NCBI RefSeq assembly: GCF_023017165.1
Contig: NZ_JALKBW010000001.1
Coordinates: 2,666,001-2,730,000, forward strand
DNA: 64,000 bases
Direction: 5' to 3'
Origin: Gordonia alkaliphila
GTDB taxonomy: Bacteria; Actinomycetota; Actinomycetes; Mycobacteriales; Mycobacteriaceae
How positions within the stretch are numbered: the stretch's first letter is position 1; each line of letters opens with the position of its first letter. The notes beneath the pieces are model-generated. The model did no database searches. It worked only from the letters and a program-made list of their open reading frames with translations, and was not told the origin of the DNA. Position numbers and translations under genes: made by a program. Below, piece after piece: positions 5,218 through 50,602 of the stretch.

Positions 5218-5302
<85 letters not shown>

Positions 5303-6489: not shown

Positions 6490-7764
6490 TCAGCGGCCGA
6501 CGGTCTGCCGCCGGGGCGCGGTGGACGATGCGGTCGACGGCGCTGCGGGATCCCGCTTGTCCTTCTCCGCTCCGAGGCCGGTGCCGGTGGTGTCGTCTTC
6601 GCGCAGGCACATCGACCGCACCACGTCGTGGTAGGTCACCAGGCCGTAGACCAGCGGCACGTTCAGGGCGTTGCCGATGATCCGGAACGGCGAGATCAGC
6701 AGCGCGTCGCCCGCCCGGATCGGGTCGACCAGCGCCGAGCCGATTTCGGTGAACAGGTGCACCGACAGGTAGTAGGTGAAGTACGTGGCGGTGAGCGACT
6801 TGGTGACCGTCAGCTCGGTCATCGGCACCGTCGCGCCCAGGTCGGCGCCCGTACCGAGGTTGTGGCCGAGGCCGATCAGGATGTCCAGCGGCGCCCCGCC
6901 CACGTAGGGGATCGCGCCGCCGATGTAGGAGCCCATCGTTTCGACGGTGGACCAGTCCGCCGGATCGGCCGGAATCAGGTTGTGCGGGATGCGCACCGAC
7001 TTCATCTGCCGCAGCACCTGCTTGGTCTGCGCCTGGATCCGCCGCTTTGCCGCCGCATCGGGGGCCTGCTGCTGTGCGGCATCGCTGACGCGGCCGACGA
7101 TGCGGGCCAGCGTCAGGTCGCCGATCGGCGTGCACGTCTCCGAATCGGCGAGCGCGAGCTGGTCGGCGATGCCGGCGATGATCGGATGGATCGGGATGTC
7201 GTAGACCACGTCCTCGCTGGGTTTACCGGCGAGGGCCTTCTGCTCGGGCGTCACGCGGGCCATGCAGTTGTCCAGAATCGACTCGCTGATGGCCGAGTAC
7301 AGCTGGGTCAGCCCCAGCCGGAACACGGCGAAACCGATGGTCAGCAGCATGCTGTACGACGGGAAGCCGAGCTCCGGGATCACCGCGCCGCTCAGATCGA
7401 AGACGTTGGGCGCCATCTCCACGCCGATGCGGGCCGGCGCCAGCACGCCGAGGAAGAAGTACAGCCACGCCGACTCCACCGCCTGCGACAGGGTGATGTT
7501 GGCGACCGGGATGGCCTCGTTCTGCTTGCCGTCGCGGATCTTGAGCAGCCCCGAGACGATCGCCTGCGACTGCGGCGAACGGTACTTGGTCGACGGGTCG
7601 TCGGCGCTCGCCCCGAGCGTCCGCGGATGCTCGGACAGGGCGAGCGTGGAGACGGTGATCCGTTCCATCTCGGACTTGATCTGCGGGTGCTGCGCGAGGA
7701 CGGTGCTGCGCACCTGCGGCGGCAGGCCGGGCAGCGCGGACTGCACGATCGACTCGTAGATCAC
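6490..7764 (-). CDS. Uncharacterised hydrophobic protein, start uncertain
   Basis: I do not recognise the family. From the GTG at 7764 the product is 424 residues: a soluble N-terminal part, a hydrophobic middle (SAWLYFFLGVLAPARIGVEM and YSMLLTIGFAVFRLGLTQLY) and a C-terminal half with LIPADPADW, GLGHNLGTGADLGA and an amphipathic stretch LTVTKSLTATYFTYYLSVHLF. The start is weak: no Shine-Dalgarno precedes it, and the frame continues upstream through a Ser/Pro-rich stretch that looks like a secreted-protein linker but offers no start codon before it enters the divergent gene. A missed N-terminus or a frameshift near 7800-7950 is possible. Divergent from the methyltransferase gene. Confidence 0.6.
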   Translation of the reverse strand: MIYESIVQSALPGLPPQVRSTVLAQHPQIKSEMERITVSTLALSEHPRTLGASADDPSTKYRSPQSQAIVSGLLKIRDGKQNEAIPVANITLSQAVESAWLYFFLGVLAPARIGVEMAPNVFDLSGAVIPELGFPSYSMLLTIGFAVFRLGLTQLYSAISESILDNCMARVTPEQKALAGKPSEDVVYDIPIHPIIAGIADQLALADSETCTPIGDLTLARIVGRVSDAAQQQAPDAAAKRRIQAQTKQVLRQMKSVRIPHNLIPADPADWSTVETMGSYIGGAIPYVGGAPLDILIGLGHNLGTGADLGATVPMTELTVTKSLTATYFTYYLSVHLFTEIGSALVDPIRAGDALLISPFRIIGNALNVPLVYGLVTYHDVVRSMCLREDDTTGTGLGAEKDKRDPAAPSTASSTAPRRQTVGR

Positions 7765-8010
7765 GCCGAGGGTGGCGAATTCGCCACTGACACAGATGGT
7801 TTCGGTCGACTCGGACGGTCGGGACGGCTGGGTCGGCGACGACGGCGACGAGGGGGCCGAGTGCGGCGCACGATCCGGGCGGGAGCAGGGCGAGACCGGG
7901 GTCGGAAGAACGGCGTCTTCTGCCGGGCGATCCGGTCCTGGCGCTCCTGGTAACTCTCCGGTATGGGCGGAATATTCGGTGAATCTGCGGTGGCCGGTAG
8001 GCTCGGGCCG

Positions 8011-9513
8011 GTGACCTCGCTTCCGCTCCGTGACCAGTCCGTCGTGCAGGCCCTCGGGACCGCGCTCCGCGAGCGCGACTTCACCGCCGCCGGCATTGCC
8101 GATCTGCTCGGTGAGCAGGCGGGTGCGGCGCTGACCGTCGGCACGTGGTGGCCGGCCCTGCGCGCGACCGAGCGCGCCGACGAGGCTCGTCGCCCGTTGG
8201 CCACGCTGATCCGGCTGTTCCTGCTGGGCGGCCTGGAACCCGAGGCGCACGTGCGCGCGGCCTTCGCGCCGATCGCCCCGGCGATCCTGGTGGAACAGGG
8301 CGTCCTCGCCGCCGCCGACGGCGGCTTCCGCGCGGTCCTCGACATCCGGCCGCACGGCAGCGACGATCACGAATACCTGGTGGTCAGCGATCAGGACGCG
8401 CTCCTGAGCGCGGCCACCCTGGCGCACGACCACGTCCTCGGGATCGGGGGCGCGTCGATGTCGTTGGCGCACGCGGTGGTGCGCACCCCGGCCGCGCGCG
8501 CCCTGGACCTCGGCACCGGCTGCGTCATTCAGGCGCTGCACCTGGACTCGCACGCCGAGACCGTCGTCGCCACCGACACCAATCCGCGGGCACTGGCCCT
8601 CGCGCGGGTCACCGCGGAGCTCAACGGCATGTCCTGGGATCTGCGCGGAGGCAGCCTCTTCGAGCCGGTGGCCGGCGAGCGATTCGATCTGATCGTCGCC
8701 AACCCGCCGTTCGTGGTGGGCGCGGGCGGCCAGGATTACATCTATCGCGACTCCGGCATCGCCGGCGACGGCATCAGCCGCCGGCTGATCGAGCAGGTCG
8801 CCGACCACCTCGCGCCCGGCGGCGTGGCCCAGCTGCTCGCGAACTGGGTGGTGCACGACGTCGACGACTGGCAGGCCCGCATCGGGGAGTGGGTGCGGGC
8901 CAGCGGCCTCGACGCCTGGGTGGTGCAGCGCGAGCTGGCCGATCCGATCAGCTACATCTCGCTGTGGATCGCCGACGCGGGCGAGACCCCGGAGGCTGCC
9001 GCCGAACGCGGCGCGCTCTGGCTCGACTGGTTCGAACGTGAACAGATCGTCGGCATCGGGATGGGGCTGGTGACGCTGCGCAAGCCCGATACCGACCGCG
9101 AACCGGACGTGGTGATCGAGGAGATCACCGCGGCCGGCCAGGAAGTGACCGGCTTCGAAGTACAGGCCTGGTGGGCGCGGCGGGACTTCCTGCGCACCAC
9201 GTCCGACGACGACCTGCTGGCCGCTTCGCTCAGCACCTCGCCGGTCTTCCTCGAAGCGCAGTCGCTGCCCGGATCGGACGGTTGGCAGGAGATCTCGGCG
9301 GCGGTGACCCGCCCCGGCGGTCCCGGGGCCGTGCTGCCCGTCGACGAGGTGATGACCGCCCTGCTGGCCGGCTGCCGCGGTGAAGTGCCGCTGAGCGCGC
9401 TGATCGGACTGCTCGCGGACTTCCACGGGGTCGACGCCGACGCGCTCGCCGAGGTGACCCTGCCGGTGGTGCGCGAGGCGATCACCCGCGGCATCCTGTT
9501 CGTCGCCGGATAG
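8011..9513 (+). CDS. Class I SAM-dependent methyltransferase (DUF7059/DUF7782 type)
   Basis: A 500-residue protein with an N-terminal helical domain (1-90), a Rossmann methyltransferase core with motif I LDLGTGCVIQAL (about 165) and the NPPF motif (about 231-234), and a C-terminal wing domain. NPPF/Y is the signature of enzymes that methylate amide or exocyclic amino nitrogens, such as HemK/PrmC or DNA and RNA N-methylases; the actual substrate is unknown. The GTG at 8011 sits 8 nt after TAGGCT, a likely -10, which suggests a leaderless transcript. An in-frame ATG at 7963 lies before that -10 and is disfavoured. Confidence 0.82.
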   Translation: MTSLPLRDQSVVQALGTALRERDFTAAGIADLLGEQAGAALTVGTWWPALRATERADEARRPLATLIRLFLLGGLEPEAHVRAAFAPIAPAILVEQGVLAAADGGFRAVLDIRPHGSDDHEYLVVSDQDALLSAATLAHDHVLGIGGASMSLAHAVVRTPAARALDLGTGCVIQALHLDSHAETVVATDTNPRALALARVTAELNGMSWDLRGGSLFEPVAGERFDLIVANPPFVVGAGGQDYIYRDSGIAGDGISRRLIEQVADHLAPGGVAQLLANWVVHDVDDWQARIGEWVRASGLDAWVVQRELADPISYISLWIADAGETPEAAAERGALWLDWFEREQIVGIGMGLVTLRKPDTDREPDVVIEEITAAGQEVTGFEVQAWWARRDFLRTTSDDDLLAASLSTSPVFLEAQSLPGSDGWQEISAAVTRPGGPGAVLPVDEVMTALLAGCRGEVPLSALIGLLADFHGVDADALAEVTLPVVREAITRGILFVAG

Positions 9514-9518
9514 CCGTC

Positions 9519-9541
9519 GCGCCCGCCGGTTGGAAGGGCGC
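9519..9541. terminator. Short hairpin between convergent genes
   Basis: GCGCCC (9519-9524) and GGGCGC (9536-9541) pair around an 11-nt loop between the methyltransferase stop and the convergent PLP-enzyme stop. Confidence 0.4.
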
Positions 9542-10771
9542 TCAGGCCGGGCCCACGACGGCGTCGAGGGCCGCGGCGAGGTCGGCGCGGAGGTCGTCGA
9601 CGTCCTCCAAACCGACCGAGAAGCGCAGGTGGCCCAGCGTGCGGAAGCCCTCGGGGTAGGCGGCCACGCGCGGCCCGGAGGTGCCCACGTGGACGATGAG
9701 CGACTCGTCGTGTCCCACCGAGACCGCCGAGGTGATCACCCGGAGTTCGTCGACGAACCGGTTCTGCAGGTCGGGGCCGCCGTCGAGCGCGAAGGCCAGG
9801 ATCCCGCCGAAGCCCCGGCCGTCGAACAATCGCTGCGCCGTCGCGTGCTGCGGGTGGCTCTCGAGTCCGGGATAGGCGACGTAGGCGATCCGATCGTCGG
9901 CCTCCAGGAACCGGGCCAGCGTCAGTGCCGACTCCTGGTGGCGGGCCAGACGCAGCGGCAGCGTCACCGAACCGCGGACGATCAGCCAGGCGTTGAACGG
10001 TGACAGCACGCCGCCGACGTCGACCATGGCCTCGGCCCGGATCGGCTCGATGAGTTCGGCGCGGCCGATCACCGCGCCGCCCATGGCGTCACCGTGGCCG
10101 TTGATGTACTTGGTGAGGGAATGCACCACCAGGTCGGCGCCGGCCTCGAGCGGGCGCAGCAGCGGCGGCGGGGTGAAGGTGGAGTCGACCATCAGCAGCA
10201 CGTCGCGGCTGTGCGCCAACGCGGCGAGCGCCGGGATGTCGGCGACCTTGGTGGTGGGGTTGGCGATCACTTCGCACGCGATGAGTCGGGTGGTGGGGCG
10301 GATCGCGGCGGCGACCGCGTCGAGATCGGTGATGTCGACGAAGGTCGCCTCGATGCCGTACTTGCGCGGCAGCAGCGTGGTCCAGAGCTTGTAGGTGGCC
10401 TCGTAGGTGGTGTCGGAGACCACCACGTGATCGCCGGTGCGCAGGTGTGTGAAGAACACCGCGTGCAGCGCCGCCACCCCGGACGCCAGAGCGAGCGCAT
10501 CCTCGCCGTGTTCCATCGCGGCCAATTTCCGTTGCAGCGCAACCTGATTGACACCGGTGTTGCGCGTGTAGACCAGGTGATCGGGATCCGACCAGTCCAT
10601 GGTCGACGGGTCGTAGGGCAGCCGATAGGAGTTGGCCATGGTGATCGGCACCCGGATGGCCTCGCCCTCGCCGTGGACGTGGTTCCCGCCGTGCACGCTC
10701 AGCGTGTCGTCGGCGAGGGTGGCCGGAACGGACCGGTCCGGACGGGGCGTGTGCGGGCGCTGCGGGGACAT
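9542..10771 (-). CDS. Trans-sulfuration family PLP enzyme (cystathionine gamma-lyase / methionine gamma-lyase-like)
   Basis: A 409-residue Cys/Met-metabolism PLP-dependent enzyme. The PLP lysine is Lys221 in HSLTKYINGHGD, the pyridine-binding aspartate is Asp196 in LLMVDSTF, and YTRNTGVNQVALQRKLAAME (68-87) is the usual cofactor and subunit-contact region. The family covers gamma-synthases and beta/gamma-lyases, which cannot be separated here. The ATG at 10771 has a strong GAAGGAG. It lies 22 nt downstream of the acyltransferase gene, so the two may be co-transcribed. Confidence 0.88.
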   Translation of the reverse strand: MSPQRPHTPRPDRSVPATLADDTLSVHGGNHVHGEGEAIRVPITMANSYRLPYDPSTMDWSDPDHLVYTRNTGVNQVALQRKLAAMEHGEDALALASGVAALHAVFFTHLRTGDHVVVSDTTYEATYKLWTTLLPRKYGIEATFVDITDLDAVAAAIRPTTRLIACEVIANPTTKVADIPALAALAHSRDVLLMVDSTFTPPPLLRPLEAGADLVVHSLTKYINGHGDAMGGAVIGRAELIEPIRAEAMVDVGGVLSPFNAWLIVRGSVTLPLRLARHQESALTLARFLEADDRIAYVAYPGLESHPQHATAQRLFDGRGFGGILAFALDGGPDLQNRFVDELRVITSAVSVGHDESLIVHVGTSGPRVAAYPEGFRTLGHLRFSVGLEDVDDLRADLAAALDAVVGPA

Positions 10772-44256: not shown

Positions 44257-44508
44257 ATGAAGAAGATTGGCTTTCTGTCCTTCGGTCACTGGCCCGACTC
44301 GCCGGGGTTGCAGACCCGTTCCGCCTCCGATACGCTGCTGCAGTCCATCGACTTGGCGGTCGCCGCCGAGGAGTTGGGCGCCGACGGCGCCTACTTCCGC
44401 GTGCACCACTTCGCGCAGCAGCTCGGTTCGCCGTTCCCGCTGCTGTCGGCGATCGGCGCCAAGACGTCGAACATCGAGATCGGCACCGGCGTGATCGACA
44501 TGCGTTAG
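44257..44508 (+). pseudogene. 5' part of a split LLM flavin-dependent oxidoreductase
   Basis: 83 residues starting MKKIGFLSFGHWPDSPGL and ending EIGTGVIDMR before a TAG created at the junction. This is the N-terminal beta-alpha part of a luciferase-like, flavin-dependent monooxygenase (FRVHHFAQQLGSPFPLLSAIGAKT is typical). The family continues MRYENP, which reappears at 49864 after the inserted element. On its own the fragment cannot form the barrel. Confidence 0.88.
44498..44504. repeat. Left direct repeat ACATGCG at the element boundary
   Basis: ACATGCG occurs here and at 49864-49870. Fusing the two copies restores the uninterrupted reading IDMRYENP of the LLM gene, so this marks the recombination point. 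It is followed by TTAG and its own inverse CGCATGT (44509-44515). Confidence 0.75.
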
Positions 44509-44541
44509 CGCATGTCTGAGTTATGGCGTTGGACGGAACAC

Positions 44542-46446
44542 CTATTGCTTGCGGGCACGCGCAGCCCGCAGTCCGTTGGCGATGACGACGACTTCGGCGA
44601 CCTCGTGCACGAGGACGACCGCTGCCAGGCCGAGCACGCCGGTGATCGCCAGCGGCAGCAGCACAGTGATGATCGCCAAGGACAGCACGATGTTCTGGTT
44701 GATGATCCTGCCGCCGCGGCGGGCGTGGCGCAGAGCCTGCGGGATGAGGCCGAGGTCGTGGCCGGTGAAGGCGACGTCGGCGGACTCGATCGCGGCGTCG
44801 GAGCCGGTCGCGCCCATCGCGATGCCCACGGTCGCCCCGGCCAGGGCGGGCGCGTCGTTGATGCCGTCGCCGATCATCGCGGTCGGCGACGTCTCCGAGA
44901 ACCCGGCGACGATGCGAGCCTTGTCCTCGGGACGCAGCTCGGCGTGCACGTCGCCGATCCCGGCCAGCTTCGCCAGCGCAGCAGCGGTGCGGGAGTTGTC
45001 GCCGGTGAGCATGCTCACCTCGACGCCCTGGTCGCGCAGGGTCCGCACGACCTCGGGGACCTCGGGGCGCAGCTCGTCGCGGACGCCGATCGCCCCGGCC
45101 AGGAAGCCGTCGACGGTGACGAGCACGCAGGTCTGCCCCTCGGCCTCCAGGTCCTCGACCCGGGCCTTGAGCGGACCGGCGTCGATCCAGCGCGGACTGC
45201 CCACCGCCACCCTGCGGCCGTCGACCAGGCCACCGATGCCGTGCCCGGCCTCCTCGGCCACGTCCTGCGCGGCGGGGGTTCCCCGGCCCGCGGCGGCGAT
45301 GGCGGCGGCGAGTGGGTGCGTCGAGTGCTGCTCCACGGCGGCAGCCCAAGCAAGCACCTGCGCATCGTCGAACCCATGGGCGGCGACGATGGCGGTTACC
45401 TCGGGCCGGTTGCGGGTCAGAGTGCCGGTCTTGTCCACGGCCAGGTGCCGGATGCCGCCGAGGCGCTCGAAGGCGGCCCCGCTCTTGATGACGACGCCGA
45501 ACTTGGTCGCCGCGCCGATCGCGGAGACCACGGTGACGGGCACCGCGATCGCCAGCGCGCAGGGGCTGGCCGCGACGAGGACGACCAGGGCGCGGGTGAT
45601 CCAGGTCTCCGGGTCGCCGAGCAGGGACCCGAGCACGCCGACGAGGACGGCGAGGACCATCACGCCGGGCACCAGCGGGCGGGCGATCCGGTCAGCGATC
45701 CGGGCTCGGTCGCCCTTCTCGGCCTGGGCCTGCTCTACCAGCTCCACGATCGTGGTCAGCGAGTTGTCGGTGCCCGCGGCGGTCGCCTCGACCTCCAGCA
45801 CGCCGGCGCTGTTGATCGCGCCCGCCGACACCGCTTCTCCGGGCGCGACCTCGACCGGGATCGATTCACCGGTGATCGCCGAAGTGTCCAGGCTCGACCG
45901 GCCCGAGCGGACCAGCCCATCGGTCGCGACCCGCTCGCCAGGGCGGACCAGCAGCACGTCGCCGACGGCGATCTCCCTGGCCGGGACCGAGGCGGAGGTC
46001 CCGTCGCGCAGCACGGTCGCGGTCTCCGGCACGAGCTTCAGCAGCGCGCGCAGCCCGCCGCGGGCGCGGTCCATCGCCTTGTCCTCCAGGGCCTCGGCGA
46101 TCGAGTAGAGGAACGCCAGCGCGGCCGCCTCCTCGACGTAGCCGAGGATCACCGCGCCCACGGCGCTGATCGTCATCAGCAGCGCGATCCCGAGCTTGCG
46201 CTTCACAACGAGATTCCGGATCGCACCGGGCACGAACGTATACGCGCCCAGCAGCAGGCCCGCCCAGAACGCGACCAGCGCCGCGATGTGCAGCCCCGAC
46301 CACTCCAGCGCCAGGCCGGTGCCGAACGCGACGCCGGAGAGGATCGGCACGACCAGGCCGGGATCACGCCACCACGGGCGCTCTGCCTCCTCTGCCTCGT
46401 CCGCGGGGCTGGTCGTCGGCTCGTCGCAGCCGCAGGCGGCGCTCAC
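44542..46446 (-). CDS. P1B-type heavy-metal ATPase, SPC class (CtpG/CadA-like)
   Basis: A 634-residue metal exporter for Cd/Pb/Zn-type ions, acting with the CmtR repressor upstream. No heavy-metal-associated domain; a short N-terminal AACGC could bind metal. Motifs: ITGES (about 193), transmembrane metal site SPCALA (about 295, SPC in place of CPC), DKTGT (about 336), HP motif STHPLA, MLTGDN (about 480) and GDGINDAPALA (about 526). The C-terminal helix has LVHEVAEVVVIANGL, as in mycobacterial CtpG. The GTG at 46446 overlaps the cmtR stop (GTGA). It ends 37 nt from the element's left edge. Confidence 0.9.
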   Translation of the reverse strand: MSAACGCDEPTTSPADEAEEAERPWWRDPGLVVPILSGVAFGTGLALEWSGLHIAALVAFWAGLLLGAYTFVPGAIRNLVVKRKLGIALLMTISAVGAVILGYVEEAAALAFLYSIAEALEDKAMDRARGGLRALLKLVPETATVLRDGTSASVPAREIAVGDVLLVRPGERVATDGLVRSGRSSLDTSAITGESIPVEVAPGEAVSAGAINSAGVLEVEATAAGTDNSLTTIVELVEQAQAEKGDRARIADRIARPLVPGVMVLAVLVGVLGSLLGDPETWITRALVVLVAASPCALAIAVPVTVVSAIGAATKFGVVIKSGAAFERLGGIRHLAVDKTGTLTRNRPEVTAIVAAHGFDDAQVLAWAAAVEQHSTHPLAAAIAAAGRGTPAAQDVAEEAGHGIGGLVDGRRVAVGSPRWIDAGPLKARVEDLEAEGQTCVLVTVDGFLAGAIGVRDELRPEVPEVVRTLRDQGVEVSMLTGDNSRTAAALAKLAGIGDVHAELRPEDKARIVAGFSETSPTAMIGDGINDAPALAGATVGIAMGATGSDAAIESADVAFTGHDLGLIPQALRHARRGGRIINQNIVLSLAIITVLLPLAITGVLGLAAVVLVHEVAEVVVIANGLRAARARKQ

Positions 46447-46811
46447 GAGGCGTCCCCCGAACTGCTCGCGGCGCAGCAGCCCGGCACCGAGCAGGCCGGG
46501 TCGATGCACGGCGCGCTCTCGTCCACGGCGAGGGTCACATCGACCAGTGCCGTCAGCGCCGCGGCCAGGTGCGGGTCGGCGATCTCGTAGCGAGTCTGGC
46601 GGCCCTCGGGCTCGGCGACCACGATCCCGCAGTCGCGCAGGCAGGTCAGGTGGTTGGACACGTTCGAGCGGGTCAGCCCCAGCTCGCGCGAGAGCACCGC
46701 GGGGTGGCTCGGGCTGTCGAGCAGGGACATCAGGATGCGGGAGCGCGTCGGGTCGGCCATGGCCCGGCCGAGCCGGTTCATGACGTCAAGACGCGAAGCA
46801 ATGGTCAGCAT
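46443..46811 (-). CDS. cmtR: CmtR-like ArsR/SmtB metal sensor
   Basis: A 122-residue winged-helix repressor that leaves DNA when it binds Cd(II) or Pb(II). Its ligand set matches M. tuberculosis CmtR residue for residue: Cys57 and Cys61 in LTCLRDCG on the recognition helix, and Cys102 in ESAPC near the C-terminus. More cysteines follow (DPAC and VPGCC). GLTRSNVSNHLTCLRDCG is the DNA-reading region. The ATG at 46811 is close behind TATAGT, a -10-like sequence on the minus strand, so the transcript may be almost leaderless. It is coupled to the ATPase gene. Confidence 0.93.
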   Translation of the reverse strand: MLTIASRLDVMNRLGRAMADPTRSRILMSLLDSPSHPAVLSRELGLTRSNVSNHLTCLRDCGIVVAEPEGRQTRYEIADPHLAAALTALVDVTLAVDESAPCIDPACSVPGCCAASSSGDAS

Positions 46812-46813
46812 GC

Positions 46814-46850
46814 ACTGAACTATACAGCAGCCGCTGACCTAACGTTCAGT
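46814..46850 (-). promoter_or_regulatory. cmtR promoter/operator region
   Basis: ACTGAAC (46814-46820) and GTTCAGT (46844-46850) form inverted arms around a -10-like TATAGT (minus strand, 46819-46824) and degenerate AT-rich sequence. A repressor at this spot would block cmtR-ATPase transcription. The exact CmtR contacts are not known here. Confidence 0.5.
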
Positions 46851-46899
46851 TGTCGCGGCTGCCGCACGCGCTGCGCGCGCTTGCCCTCGTGAGGCGTGA

Positions 46900-47805
46900 T
46901 CACCTCTTGCGCCAGCGGGGCCACTTCGGCATCCCGCGGCCCTTCCAGGTCTCCACGAGACCCGCAACCCAGCGGACGGACGCGAAGAGCCCGTAGCCGG
47001 CCCCGGCGAGGCCAGCGCCGACCACGAGCCACCGGCCGATGCCGAGCCATACGCTCCCGTCCACGTCCAGCGCCCACTGAACACCCGTGATGAGCCCGGC
47101 GATGCCCATCCAGAGACCGGCGACGACCACGGCCACCGGCAGTAGAACGAGGCACATCGCGGCGGCGGCGGACCAGAGCTGTCGCGCCTCCAGCTTCGCC
47201 GTCGCGGCGATGATCCGCTCCGCCCGCGCGTTCGAGGCGTCGAGGCTCGCGGTCATCGTGGCCGAAGCCTCCCCGGCGACCTGCTCGACAGCCTTCTCGA
47301 CCCGTTCCTCGGTGCGCTTCTCGATCCGCTGGACCGCGCCGCCGACCTGGCTCACGAGCTTCTGGTTCGCTGTGACCTGCGCCTTCAGACCCTCAATCGC
47401 CGAGGCCGTAGCCGCGCGATTCTTCTGCGCCTCCGCGACCAAGCTCCGCGACGCGGCGTTCAAGCTCTCGCCGTTGAGACTCTGCGCGAACTCGCCGAGC
47501 GTGCTCGCGATCTCGTTCTGCCTGCTCTCGATACTCGCGATCCTCGCGGACACGTCGCTGGAGGGCGAGGAGGTCGACGCCGGGGCCGTGATCCGCTCCA
47601 GCCGCCTCGTCGTCTCCTCGTCCATGACCTTCACGAACCCCGCGAGCTTCTTCTGCTGTTCGGTCAGCGTGGCGATCCTCGTGTTCTGCGCCTCGACGGC
47701 GGCGAGGATCGAGGTCAACAGCTCCATCGTCTCCGGACTGCCGAGCTGCTGCTGCGACTGCTCGGGCTCGTTCTGCTGCTTCAGCCTGTCGAGCGCTGCG
47801 CTCAT
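46900..47805 (-). CDS. MobB/MbeB-like mobilization protein with C-terminal membrane domain
   Basis: A 301-residue protein. A Gln/Glu-rich, heptad-like coiled coil covers about 20-190 (AAVEAQNTRIATLTEQQKKL, IASIESRQNEIASTLGEFAQ), followed by two or three hydrophobic segments (about 200-270) and a basic tail PKWPRWRKR. This build resembles accessory proteins that anchor relaxosomes to the membrane. The ATG at 47805 has a strong AAGGAGAAGGAAC. The first 413 bp overlap the 3' part of the relaxase gene in another frame, like mbeB inside mbeA of ColE1 plasmids. Confidence 0.72.
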   Translation of the reverse strand: MSAALDRLKQQNEPEQSQQQLGSPETMELLTSILAAVEAQNTRIATLTEQQKKLAGFVKVMDEETTRRLERITAPASTSSPSSDVSARIASIESRQNEIASTLGEFAQSLNGESLNAASRSLVAEAQKNRAATASAIEGLKAQVTANQKLVSQVGGAVQRIEKRTEERVEKAVEQVAGEASATMTASLDASNARAERIIAATAKLEARQLWSAAAAMCLVLLPVAVVVAGLWMGIAGLITGVQWALDVDGSVWLGIGRWLVVGAGLAGAGYGLFASVRWVAGLVETWKGRGMPKWPRWRKR

Positions 47806-48679
47806 GTTCCTTCTCCTTCTGCTGCTGGTGGTAGTCGAAGAACGCCTGCGCGCCCTCCGGGGTGAAGTCCGCCGAGAGGGCGCTCGCGCGCTTGCGGCGC
47901 TCGGCGCGGCCGGACTCGCCGCGGCGATCCTCGATGTAGAGCGTCCAGGTCTCTTGCCCGGCGCGCTTGCCCTTCTTGCTGACGGGGCTGTGCAACCGCA
48001 TCCGCGGCACCCGCTCCCCGTCATCGCCGAGCCGCTGGTTCTGCTCCTCGATCACCGAGACCAGACCGGCCTTGTCCACCGCCCGGGGATCGGCCAGCGC
48101 CGCGCTCATCCGGTCGCCCATCTCGCGGTCGAGCGATCCCTCGGCGAAGTCCTCGCGGCGCAGCTCCCAGTCCTTCGGTGCGTGCTCCAGCCGCTTCACG
48201 ACCGAGAGCCCGTGTTCTCGCATCAGCTGGTCGTTCGCCGACTGGACGCCCCGCTGATTCCCGGCCTTGCGGTCGTGGAACGTGCGATAGTCCGAGAGCG
48301 CCTTCCCCGTCCGGTTGTTGTGGTTGATGACCAAGATGTGGTTGTGCGGCTTCTTGCCCCGCCCATCCACATGACTGACTACGAGGCAGTCGGAATCCGG
48401 GTGCATCTTCTTCGCGAGCTGATAACCGAGATCGTTCACCCGCTGCACGTCCTCCGGACTCTTCGGGTCGAACTCCTCGTCGCTGAACGACTGGCGGTAA
48501 TGCACCGCCTCGACCTCGCGCGTCGTGTTCTGCGTGAGCGACCGAGCGCGCGCCGAGAACGCGCCGGGGCCTCCCGGCACATCGCACGTGATCGCGATGC
48601 CCCGCTCGTCCTCCTTGCCACGGATATCGCGCTCCGTGTCGGCGGCGCTGGCGCTCGGGCTGTAGTGCGTGGTGCTCAT
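47393..48679 (-). CDS. Relaxase / mobilization nuclease (MOBP-like)
   Basis: A 428-residue relaxase that nicks the plasmid at oriT and leads the strand into a recipient. N-terminal Tyr residues (MSTTHY and VHYRQSF) are nucleophile candidates; the metal-binding motif III is SHVDGRGKKPHNHILVIN (His103, Asp105, His112, His114). NNRTGKALSDYRTFHDRKAGNQRGVQSANDQLMREHGLSV continues the PF03432 domain. The C-terminal third is charged and overlaps the mobB-like gene. The ATG at 48679 overlaps the mobC stop (ATGA). Confidence 0.88.
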   Translation of the reverse strand: MSTTHYSPSASAADTERDIRGKEDERGIAITCDVPGGPGAFSARARSLTQNTTREVEAVHYRQSFSDEEFDPKSPEDVQRVNDLGYQLAKKMHPDSDCLVVSHVDGRGKKPHNHILVINHNNRTGKALSDYRTFHDRKAGNQRGVQSANDQLMREHGLSVVKRLEHAPKDWELRREDFAEGSLDREMGDRMSAALADPRAVDKAGLVSVIEEQNQRLGDDGERVPRMRLHSPVSKKGKRAGQETWTLYIEDRRGESGRAERRKRASALSADFTPEGAQAFFDYHQQQKEKEHERSARQAEAAERARAVAAAARQSGDDGAVDLDPRRRRGAEHEDRHADRTAEEARGVREGHGRGDDEAAGADHGPGVDLLALQRRVREDREYREQAERDREHARRVRAESQRRELERRVAELGRGGAEESRGYGLGD

Positions 48680-49266
48680 GAGGCCGCCCGATCCCCGAGC
48701 AGGGCGCGGACCTCGCGCAGCAACTCGATCAGCTCGGGCACCTCCGCCGACAGCGCCACTGACTCACCAGCCCGCGCCCGGCGGTCGAGGTCGTTGACGT
48801 TGATCGCCAGCGGGCGAATCTGCGCGGCCAGCTCGCGAGCATCCGCCGACGCCTGCACCCGCGCCTCGACCCCGAGCAGGTGCGCGGCCACGGCGGCGTC
48901 CAACTCCTCGCTCCGAGAGGCGTGGAGGGCATCCCGGACGACGGTCCGCACCCACGTGCTCGGAGCCAGCCCGAGCCGCTTCGCACGAGTGCGAAGCGCC
49001 GCGAGCGTCTCCTCTCCGAAGTCGGTATCGAGCTTCGCGCGGCCCCCACGACGACGCTTCGCGCCGCCGTGACTCTGACGCACAGCCTCCGCATCAGCCC
49101 GACCGCTGTTCACCTGGGAGTCGGTCTGCTGCTCCACCTGTACGCCAGAGTGGCAAGCAGTAGCCGTGTCGGACATTTCGCTGGCGCTCATGTCCTCCCC
49201 GGCTGCTTGCGAGGGGCCTCCGGCCCCCTCGACCCCCTGGAAGAGCGCATCGCGTTCGGTGCTCAT
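48676..49266 (-). CDS. mobC: MobC-like relaxosome accessory protein
   Basis: A 196-residue protein with a disordered, Ser/Gln-rich first 70 residues, then GGRAKLDTDFGEETLAALRTRAKRLGLAPSTWVRTVVRDAL (ribbon-helix-helix-like DNA binding) and the MobC segment AAQIRPLAINVNDLDRRARAGE. MobC opens and presents oriT to the relaxase. Its start overlaps the rep stop and its stop overlaps the relaxase start, so rep-mobC-relaxase-mobB read as one operon. Confidence 0.83.
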   Translation of the reverse strand: MSTERDALFQGVEGAGGPSQAAGEDMSASEMSDTATACHSGVQVEQQTDSQVNSGRADAEAVRQSHGGAKRRRGGRAKLDTDFGEETLAALRTRAKRLGLAPSTWVRTVVRDALHASRSEELDAAVAAHLLGVEARVQASADARELAAQIRPLAINVNDLDRRARAGESVALSAEVPELIELLREVRALLGDRAAS

Positions 49267-49863
49267 GCGGCACCTCCGATCAGCGCCTGCGGCACGTCAG
49301 GGCTCCGCACCGCGAGCCCGCCCAGCAGCTCAGCAACCGCGCCCTCAGCGTCATGTTCCGCCGAGGTCTCCGGACCGTAGGTCAGTTCCCGCGACCCGAC
49401 GTTCTGGTGATACGCGTTGCCGTACATGCCGGGCGTGTGTGCGGCGGTCGGGATGCTGCACTGGTGCCACTCGTAGGGCTCGATCTTCCCAATGTGCTGC
49501 ACGAGGTAACGATTGATGTCGTCGGCACGATAGACCTTCACGACCGAGGCCAAGCGGCGGAAGAACTGGTCCAACGCCTCGTCCACGTTGCCCTTCTGGC
49601 GGGCGTAGTAGAAGAACTCGACAGGCTCGATCGTCGCCGTGATGACGATAAGGCGCGGGGCCACCTCGCCCTTGTTCTTGTACCGAGCCTTCGCAGGCGA
49701 GGCGTTGTACGGATCAAGCAGCAGCAGCCAGTCGTTCGCATCCATCGCCGAGGCCCGCAGATCGTCCAGCAGCAGCAGCACCTCCTCGCCTCGCCAGTCA
49801 TCAAGCGGGTTCCCCGTCGCGGCCCGGTAGACCTGCCACCGCTCGCCGGGTGTTGCAACCGCT
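49263..49863 (-). pseudogene. Plasmid replication initiator, 5' end lost at the element boundary
   Basis: About 200 residues of open frame, from ATPGERWQVYRAATGNPLDDW near the boundary to the stop at 49263. EEVLLLLDDLRASAMD is a Walker B-like strand of a Rep/helicase ATPase, followed by LLLLDPYNASPAKARYKNKGE and LIVITATIEPVEFFYYARQ, a pattern of actinobacterial plasmid Rep helicase domains. No start codon and no Walker A are present; the frame runs into the LLM gene. The replicon is therefore inactive here. Confidence 0.8.
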
Positions 49864-49870
49864 ACATGCG
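49864..49870. repeat. Right direct repeat ACATGCG at the element boundary
   Basis: Second copy of the 7-bp repeat. The LLM codons ATG CGC TAC GAG AAT CCG (MRYENP) begin inside it. Confidence 0.75.
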
Positions 49871-50602
49871 CTACGAGAATCCGCCGGCGGCCGGCTGCAG
49901 CTGGGCATCTCGCGGGGATCGCCCGAGCAGGTGGTGGAGGGTTACAAGTACTTCGGCTACGTACCCGGCGAGGGGGAGACCGACGCCGATCTCGCGCGCC
50001 AGCACACGTCCGTGTTCCTCGACGTGGTGTCGGGGCGCAAGTTCGCCCAGCCGAGTCCTCGGCCGATGTTCCCCAACCCGCCCGGTCTGCTGCGCGTGGA
50101 GCCGTACTCGCACGGACTGCGGGAGCGGATCTGGTGGGGTTCGGCCTCGCGCGCCACGGCCAAGTGGACCGCGGAGCAGGGCATGAACATGATGTCGTCG
50201 ACGCTGCTCACCGAGGACACCGGCGTGCCGTTCCATCAGCTGCAGGCCGAGCAGATCCAAGTCTTCCGCGATGAGTGGGCGCAGCAGGATCACGGTTTCG
50301 AGCCGCGAGTCTCGGTGAGCCGCAGCATCTTCGCGCTCGTCGACGACCGGGACCGCGCCTACTTCGGTCCTCGCGGCGACGATCAGGACCAGATCGGGTA
50401 CATCGAGGGCGACGTCGCGCGCTTCGGCAAGTCGTACGCGGCCGAGCCGGACGTGCTGATCGAGCAGTTGCGGGAGGACGAGGCGATCGCCGCGGCCGAC
50501 ACGCTGCTGCTGACCGTTCCGAACCAGTTGGGCGTGGAGTACAACGCCCACGTGATCGAGTCGATCCTGACCCACGTCGCGCCCGCCCTCGGCTGGCGCT
50601 AG
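49864..50602 (+). pseudogene. 3' part of the split LLM flavin-dependent oxidoreductase
   Basis: The frame reads MRYENP at the junction, then shifts: the conserved GGRLQLGISRGSPEQVVEGYKYFGY and the rest of the barrel continue in another frame to the stop at 50602 (VPNQLGVEYNAHVIESILTHVAPALGWR). The family has about 14 residues between ENP and GGRLQL, so roughly 40 bp are missing. A GTG at 49850 inside the element opens a fused frame of 250 residues, but it would lack the N-terminal strands. The gene is inactive unless complemented elsewhere. Confidence 0.87.

Follow-up and report, generated by a model that had tools for sequence, protein, structure and literature searches.

A probable deletion derivative of a widespread actinobacterial integrative and mobilizable element within an LLM oxidoreductase gene of Gordonia alkaliphila

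An insert of 5,366 bp that splits an LLM oxidoreductase gene of Gordonia alkaliphila is best explained as a stranded deletion derivative of an integrative and mobilizable element (IME) widespread among actinobacteria; judged by sequence, we give this reading a probability of about 0.92. The insert occupies positions 44506–49871 of the window, i.e., the whole 64,000-nucleotide stretch analysed here (positions 2,666,001 to 2,730,000 of contig NZ_JALKBW010000001.1, assembly GCF_023017165.1). A previous sequence-only reading of this DNA had described it as a recently inserted, mobilizable metal-resistance plasmid remnant whose route of entry was unexplained and might be new. Comparison with relatives establishes the lineage of the insert, its site, the TA junctions, the two orientations found in the family and the deletions. 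The finding is explained by the loss of an integrase and not by a new entry route.

The block in the window was 99.6–99.7% identical over 5.34–5.37 kb to elements of six other species, namely Arachnia propionica (locus L058), Pauljensenia hongkongensis (L065), Brevibacterium epidermidis (L056), Propionibacterium oral taxon 192 (L055), Actinomyces massiliensis (L049) and A. bowdenii (L057), an identity that bears out the suggestion of a recent insertion. In the first search, five of these six siblings measured 8,645 bp between their LLM junctions; at the far junction of L049 a weak LLM match was found at the corresponding place. The classes of gene in the intact element are a large serine recombinase, two small open reading frames (ORFs), Rep, MobC, relaxase, a MobB-like protein, CmtR and a P1B ATPase. 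The window copy lacks about 3.28 kb, a stretch that starts within rep and reaches the outer boundary of the att arm on the integrase side; the integrase, the 5′ part of rep and the two small ORFs, of 70 and 82 aa, have gone with it. What remains is hardly altered: the mobilization and cargo proteins are 99.5–100% identical to those of L058 over their full length, and the rep fragment shows 98.5% identity and a single gap. The mobilizable nature proposed for the insert stands; its intact siblings are 8.6-kb integrative and mobilizable elements. The supposedly unexplained entry is not supported, because those siblings carry a large serine recombinase and occupy the same LLM site while the window copy has lost that gene. 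We also observed that the end of the internal deletion coincides with the outer edge of the 25-bp att arm (49846/49847), which may be chance (the join has a 2-bp overlap). The 82-aa ORF (L058 11831–12079, plus strand), located between integrase and rep, has a weak helix-turn-helix match and is a candidate excision factor or regulator.

The window lies on contig 1 (3.64 Mb) of a host genome of 3.85 Mb in two contigs. The 5′ part of its LLM gene (44257–44505, plus strand) ends after an Arg codon, and the triplet across this left junction is a TAG stop; the 3′ part (49872–50602, plus strand) begins at a Tyr codon. Against an intact Gordonia LLM protein the two parts align to residues 1–85 (86% identity) and 101–339 (77%), and in Pfam the 5′ part matches Bac_luciferase PF00296 at E = 7.6e-11 and the 3′ part weakly (E = 4.7e-4; 20.1 bits, under the cut-off of 27.9). 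The description of one gene in two halves around an insert was thus correct, and the limits first given for it, 44498–49873, were right to within a few bases. Comparison with relatives places the crossover dinucleotides TA at 44506–44507 (attL) and 49872–49873 (attR). Next to them lie the distal 25-bp attP half-site (44508–44532), with the same sequence at that end in L056, L058 and L065, and the integrase-side half-site (49847–49871, minus strand), which is complete, the internal deletion stopping at its outer edge. A few bases past the right junction about 40 bp are gone, out of frame (read by eye), from the LLM 3′ part, so that the LLM fragment has itself decayed. The window has only two tRNAs, at 5218 and 29834, which led us to reject a tRNA att site, and no long repeats were found at the ends of the insert, where the repeats listed were imperfect and scattered.

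All the genes between the LLM halves are on the minus strand. Beginning at the integrase-side end they are the 3′ part of rep (49263–49846), whose 5′ part, by comparison with siblings, went together with the integrase; a mobC-like ORF (48676–49266) with a weak NikA-like match and no clear Pfam match; the relaxase (47393–48679; PF03432, E = 2.8e-13; 99.5% identical to that of L058), which gave no match in the PDB; a mobB-like ORF (46900–47805) that overlaps the 3′ end of the relaxase and has no Pfam family above cut-off; cmtR (46443–46811), coding for a Cd/Pb-sensing ArsR-family regulator (NF047906, 175.6 bits, above the equivalog cut-off of 150; 100% identical to that of L058); and a Cd-family P1B ATPase ORF (44542–46509; TIGR01512, 494.6 bits against a cut-off of 313.5; 99.8% identical to the L058 copy). 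The full-length Rep of the siblings has Rep_OBD and RNA_helicase domains. Profile and sibling matches agree with the gene set first proposed, on one strand and with a truncated rep, the break being one end of the 3.28-kb deletion; they also uphold the metal-resistance cargo, with CmtR above its equivalog cut-off beside a Cd-family ATPase. No conjugation-pore or coupling-protein families were found among the ORFs scanned, a scan that some small ORFs fell outside. The window copy has the att junctions of an IME, and relaxase and mob genes without a transfer apparatus of its own, but no integrase, and since the latter is found in near-identical siblings the copy is classed as a derivative of an IME. 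The host's own genome held no sibling-type integrase, either at E ≤ 1e-100 or at E ≤ 1e-60.

A search at the DNA level with the whole region against 61 genomes detected four others (G014, G020, G038 and G053) with LLM pieces several kb apart and related element genes between them; among the matches listed, many genomes, e.g., G007, have LLM pieces about 50 bp apart. In each of these four, at loci L017–L020, an ORF of 478 aa adjoins one LLM junction. The integrase copy tested contains the domains of the large serine recombinases (Resolvase PF00239, E = 1.6e-23; Recombinase PF07508, E = 3.3e-12), and the sequence relatives of the L058 integrase in the PDB include the integrases of A118 (4kis) and TP901-1 (3bvp). 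Identity with the cassette chromosome recombinases (Ccr) was rejected on NCBIfam scores of 89.7 bits for CcrB (cut-off 900), 44.6 for CcrA (700) and 49.9 for CcrC (900). From an even draw of 397 genomes of the order we obtained eight integrase matches at E ≤ 1e-60. Two of these, in G006 (L089) and G084 (L090), were only 41–45% identical and were not taken as members, their 4.4-kb loci holding no LLM piece at E ≤ 0.001 and stretches of 12–18 kb giving only chance-level matches. Viral contigs scanned with the integrase alignment yielded 64 pattern stretches and no relative.

Scanning named genomes with seven aligned integrases gave 48 loci, 89–100% identical over their best segment and all in Actinomycetota (judged from organism names). 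When the 5′ and 3′ parts of the LLM gene were used as separate queries, 46 of them had an LLM piece with the break at the same codon boundary: 45 placed at first, and then L073, where the contig has 42 bp outside the TA and its end is LLM over 14 residues. The contig of L051 starts at the TA, leaving the flank beyond it outside the contig, and this locus was counted neither way. In L049, L053 and L077 the LLM gene is further broken. In L077 (Brevibacterium sp. S22, 7419–9956) about 1.7 kb separates two pieces of the LLM 3′ part and the element sequence forms two blocks that overlap, which might reflect nesting or duplication of the insertion. Among 59 Gordonia genomes, including the window host, the LLM gene was full-length in 50 (two of them at 56–57% only), split in four, partial in one and unmatched in four. 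A full integrase (E ≤ 1e-100) was present in three of the 59, which are three of the four with a split LLM gene; the fourth is the window host.

The junction dinucleotide was TA in all 41 attL and all 38 attR sites read in the named loci. Because an LLM match opening with the Tyr codon served to locate the sites, the TA is in part built into the attR reading, but not into the attL one. The base preceding this TA was C (24), G (10) or T (7) on the host side at attL and C (31) or G (7) on the element side at attR; the base after it was G (40) or C (1) on the element side at attL and C (29) or T (9) on the host side at attR. The crossover point falls between the Arg and Tyr codons of the LLM gene, with TA at the centre of attP. 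Read outward from the TA, the two attP arms mostly begin GCGCAT and both have GGTT at positions 12–15, so that attP (ca. 52 bp) is nearly palindromic; in the distal arm conservation falls past position 25. The break is likewise at TA in four junctions that lie in genes other than LLM (G319, G414, L082 and L046 on its integrase side), which have few adjoining bases in common. No LLM homologue was found in G319 at E ≤ 1e-10, and G414 has only homologues that are 27–33% identical; the G414 copy also carries an internal deletion, from the integrase into rep. A joined attP of consensus type was not found in 47 carrier genomes, where the three matches within two mismatches were attL sites and variant forms of attP would escape the search.

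The remaining modules of the family vary. Twenty of the 37 elements mapped carry cmtR, 18 of those with the P1B ATPase, and some cmtR elements add lspA, a DF-family protein or CadD. In 15 of the 37 a mercury-type block (by DNA similarity) sits at the cargo place, and the MerA of L019 is above cut-off; L069 belongs to these 15 but seems to be without merA, and L063 has both types of cargo. L048, L064 and L072 (3/37) carry other ORFs. The cmtR-ATPase pair is, then, an interchangeable cargo within the family. The relaxase of L053, L054 and L063 (3/37) is of a Mob_Pre/MobV-like kind (Mob_Pre above and MobV under cut-off), and these three together with L052 and L083 (5/37) have another Rep. Since relaxase, Rep and cargo vary between elements, the integrase is the constant module. 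Two cmtR copies, one by CadD and one by a P1B ATPase with lspA, were seen in L039 (Brevibacterium sp. W7.2) and L018 (G053). A cmtR-ATPase block 81% identical to that of the window lies outside LLM at L024 (G036 C1:261408–263684), a genome with the LLM gene intact.

Our proposal is that an intact 8.6-kb element would have entered by mobilization and that its recombinase would have joined the ca. 52-bp attP to the LLM site of the host, exchanging strands at the TA between the Arg and Tyr codons, as the junctions suggest. In the window the integrase end faced the LLM 3′ half; an internal deletion then stripped out the integrase, both small ORFs and the beginning of rep, and another, smaller deletion damaged the LLM 3′ half. 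The remnant would provide an intact relaxase region and an efflux pump inducible by Cd/Pb. By itself it could not excise, but a sibling integrase might conceivably excise it in trans, as its two 25-bp att arms are whole. Catalysis, transfer and metal tolerance are in this sense what we infer, transfer between genera from the near-identity of elements found in them.

The plasmid-type rep, mobC and relaxase, and a window without integrase, could also come from a free small plasmid, whole or in part, that a single illegitimate or homologous recombination event brought into the chromosome. We consider this very improbable in view of the codon boundary shared by 46 of 48 loci of many genera, the defined 25-bp arms and the integrase of the siblings, and no matching plasmid was found. 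No PLSDB record covers at least 80% of the block; 61 records match it, the 20 matches listed lie in the ATPase-cmtR part, and a free replicon with the same gene order was not among them. Searching plasmids with the relaxase gave 190 records, all below 60% identity, and the integrase had no match in PLSDB at E ≤ 1e-40. Together with the failure to find a joined consensus attP in the carrier genomes, this leaves the description of the insert as a plasmid remnant unsupported. Some relaxases integrate DNA, and a relaxase is present in every intact element mapped, so that integration by the relaxase at a sequence resembling its nick site has to be considered; we find it less probable still, because elements with the different, Mob_Pre/MobV-like relaxase (L053, L054 and L063) share the LLM site, the arms and the integrase, indicating that it is the integrase that goes with the site. 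An artefact of assembly or contamination, which near-identical 8.6-kb blocks in distant taxa and loci that are contigs of metagenome-assembled genomes (MAGs) or stop at the element might suggest, seems to us just as remote: the loci sit in LLM sequences of differing divergence from the query, with host-specific flanks, and the contig of the window is 3.64 Mb long.

Four observations weigh against a stranded derivative of a strictly LLM-targeted IME. In L082, from a Gordonia MAG, the integrase-side junction (6597–6641) is at a TA in an ABC-transporter region and an intact LLM gene is found elsewhere in the assembly; being a MAG, mixed binning is possible, yet as it stands this locus speaks against strict LLM targeting; preference for the LLM gene is not absolute. 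Its genome (G492) is likely the same as G024 of the Gordonia set, with an LLM match of the same contig, coordinates and E-value; G024 has an intact LLM gene and, at a contig end, a 141-residue integrase piece (97%, E = 3.3e-81). In L046 (Kocuria carniphila, ends at ca. 9955 and ca. 18499) the far side adjoins LLM and the integrase side another gene, and the LLM 5′ part was not found in this genome at the search threshold; its junctions in two genes reflect either rearrangement or misassembly. In the genome of L060 (G471 C2:156634–176989) a single integrase accompanies LLM halves that lie about 19 kb apart, with more DNA between them than one 8.6-kb element. Finally, with one genome per species, an integrase-bearing form of the host's own insertion was not seen in the host species.

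The integrase lies beside the LLM 5′ half in 20 and beside the 3′ half in 25 of the 45 loci first placed (two-sided binomial p = 0.55); L073 would raise the former group by one and the window copy belongs to the latter. As loci are not independent, near-identical pairs of elements make the stronger test of orientation. Thirty-seven elements were compared pairwise, of which L046, L049 and L060 had one end trimmed by hand; identity and coverage exceeded 95% in 38 pairs, 22 of which face opposite ways. Both orientations occur at >99.3% identity in five lineages, each across genera; one such opposite pair, Gulosibacter L043 and Tessaracoccus L045, is 99.95% identical. TA is its own reverse complement, so either orientation is possible. 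The general rule, in the portion of PMC3783163 that treats it, is that asymmetry of the central dinucleotide sets site orientation. For A118, the available text of PMC3556126 describes an asymmetric central dinucleotide that orients the sites and symmetric cores that recombine both ways, giving deletions and inversions; for phiBT1 with GC cores, recombination both ways is likewise described in part of PMC3836970. The asymmetric, orientation-fixing dinucleotide usual in large serine integrases is missing from the sibling family, and both orientations are what a natural TA core predicts. We think it probable that this is an undescribed, widespread actinobacterial IME family whose integrase is naturally orientation-blind (palindromic TA, near-symmetric attP), lands either way in the LLM gene and might flip in place; the window copy, with both arms kept, may be excised in trans. 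In the open-licence literature searched, and on limited evidence, such a state is otherwise known only from altered att sites. Integration might instead be one-way, the second orientation arising by later inversion in place between attL and attR, which a symmetric core would permit too, as the inversions given by the symmetric-core sites of A118 in that text (PMC3556126) illustrate. This we judge unlikely, since the attP × attB step with a TA core is also without an orientation cue, so that an extra rule would be needed, and no locus shows both states.

With the stranded IME derivative as the preferred explanation, what looked like an odd plasmid-like remnant becomes the stranded representative of a mobile family, which would spread metal-resistance genes nearly unchanged between distant actinobacterial genera. 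The family would offer a natural system for studying the rule that the central dinucleotide alone sets integration orientation, and its conserved landing site in one gene might serve actinobacterial genetics as an integration site.

IMEs with serine integrases are a known kind. The present elements share with those using a large serine recombinase the integrase, the att junctions, the relaxase and mob genes, the small size and the absence of conjugation genes among the ORFs identified; they differ in the Rep_OBD-type Rep, the LLM target and the occurrence of both orientations, and the window copy in having no integrase. A natural orientation-blind TA-core integrase on a widespread metal-resistance IME had no description in the open-licence literature searched, again on limited evidence. 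CcrB is the best NCBIfam resemblance of the sibling integrase, far under its cut-off, and the Ccr systems have other cargo and another site. Pairs related to the cmtR and Cd/Pb P1B ATPase of the window are found on actinobacterial plasmids, with 75–82% DNA identity among the matches listed, whereas here the pair is one of several cargoes at that place. Like the present elements, IME2287 of Rhodococcus equi is mobilizable, comes from an actinobacterium and carries a serine recombinase together with replication genes; it is set apart, by description only, by its 14.3 kb, other replication genes and no relaxase reported in the portion of that account available (PMC10669575). With the phage integrases of A118 and TP901-1 the sibling integrase shares the Resolvase and Recombinase domains, and they are its sequence relatives in the PDB. 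The attP of A118, in the available parts of PMC3783163 and PMC3556126, is likewise of about 50 bp with 25-bp half-sites, but its asymmetric GG core sets the orientation (PMC3556126, same portion), whereas the core here is a symmetric TA. Taken as a whole the family would appear, from its sequences, to be widespread, strongly but not strictly LLM-targeted, and orientation-blind.

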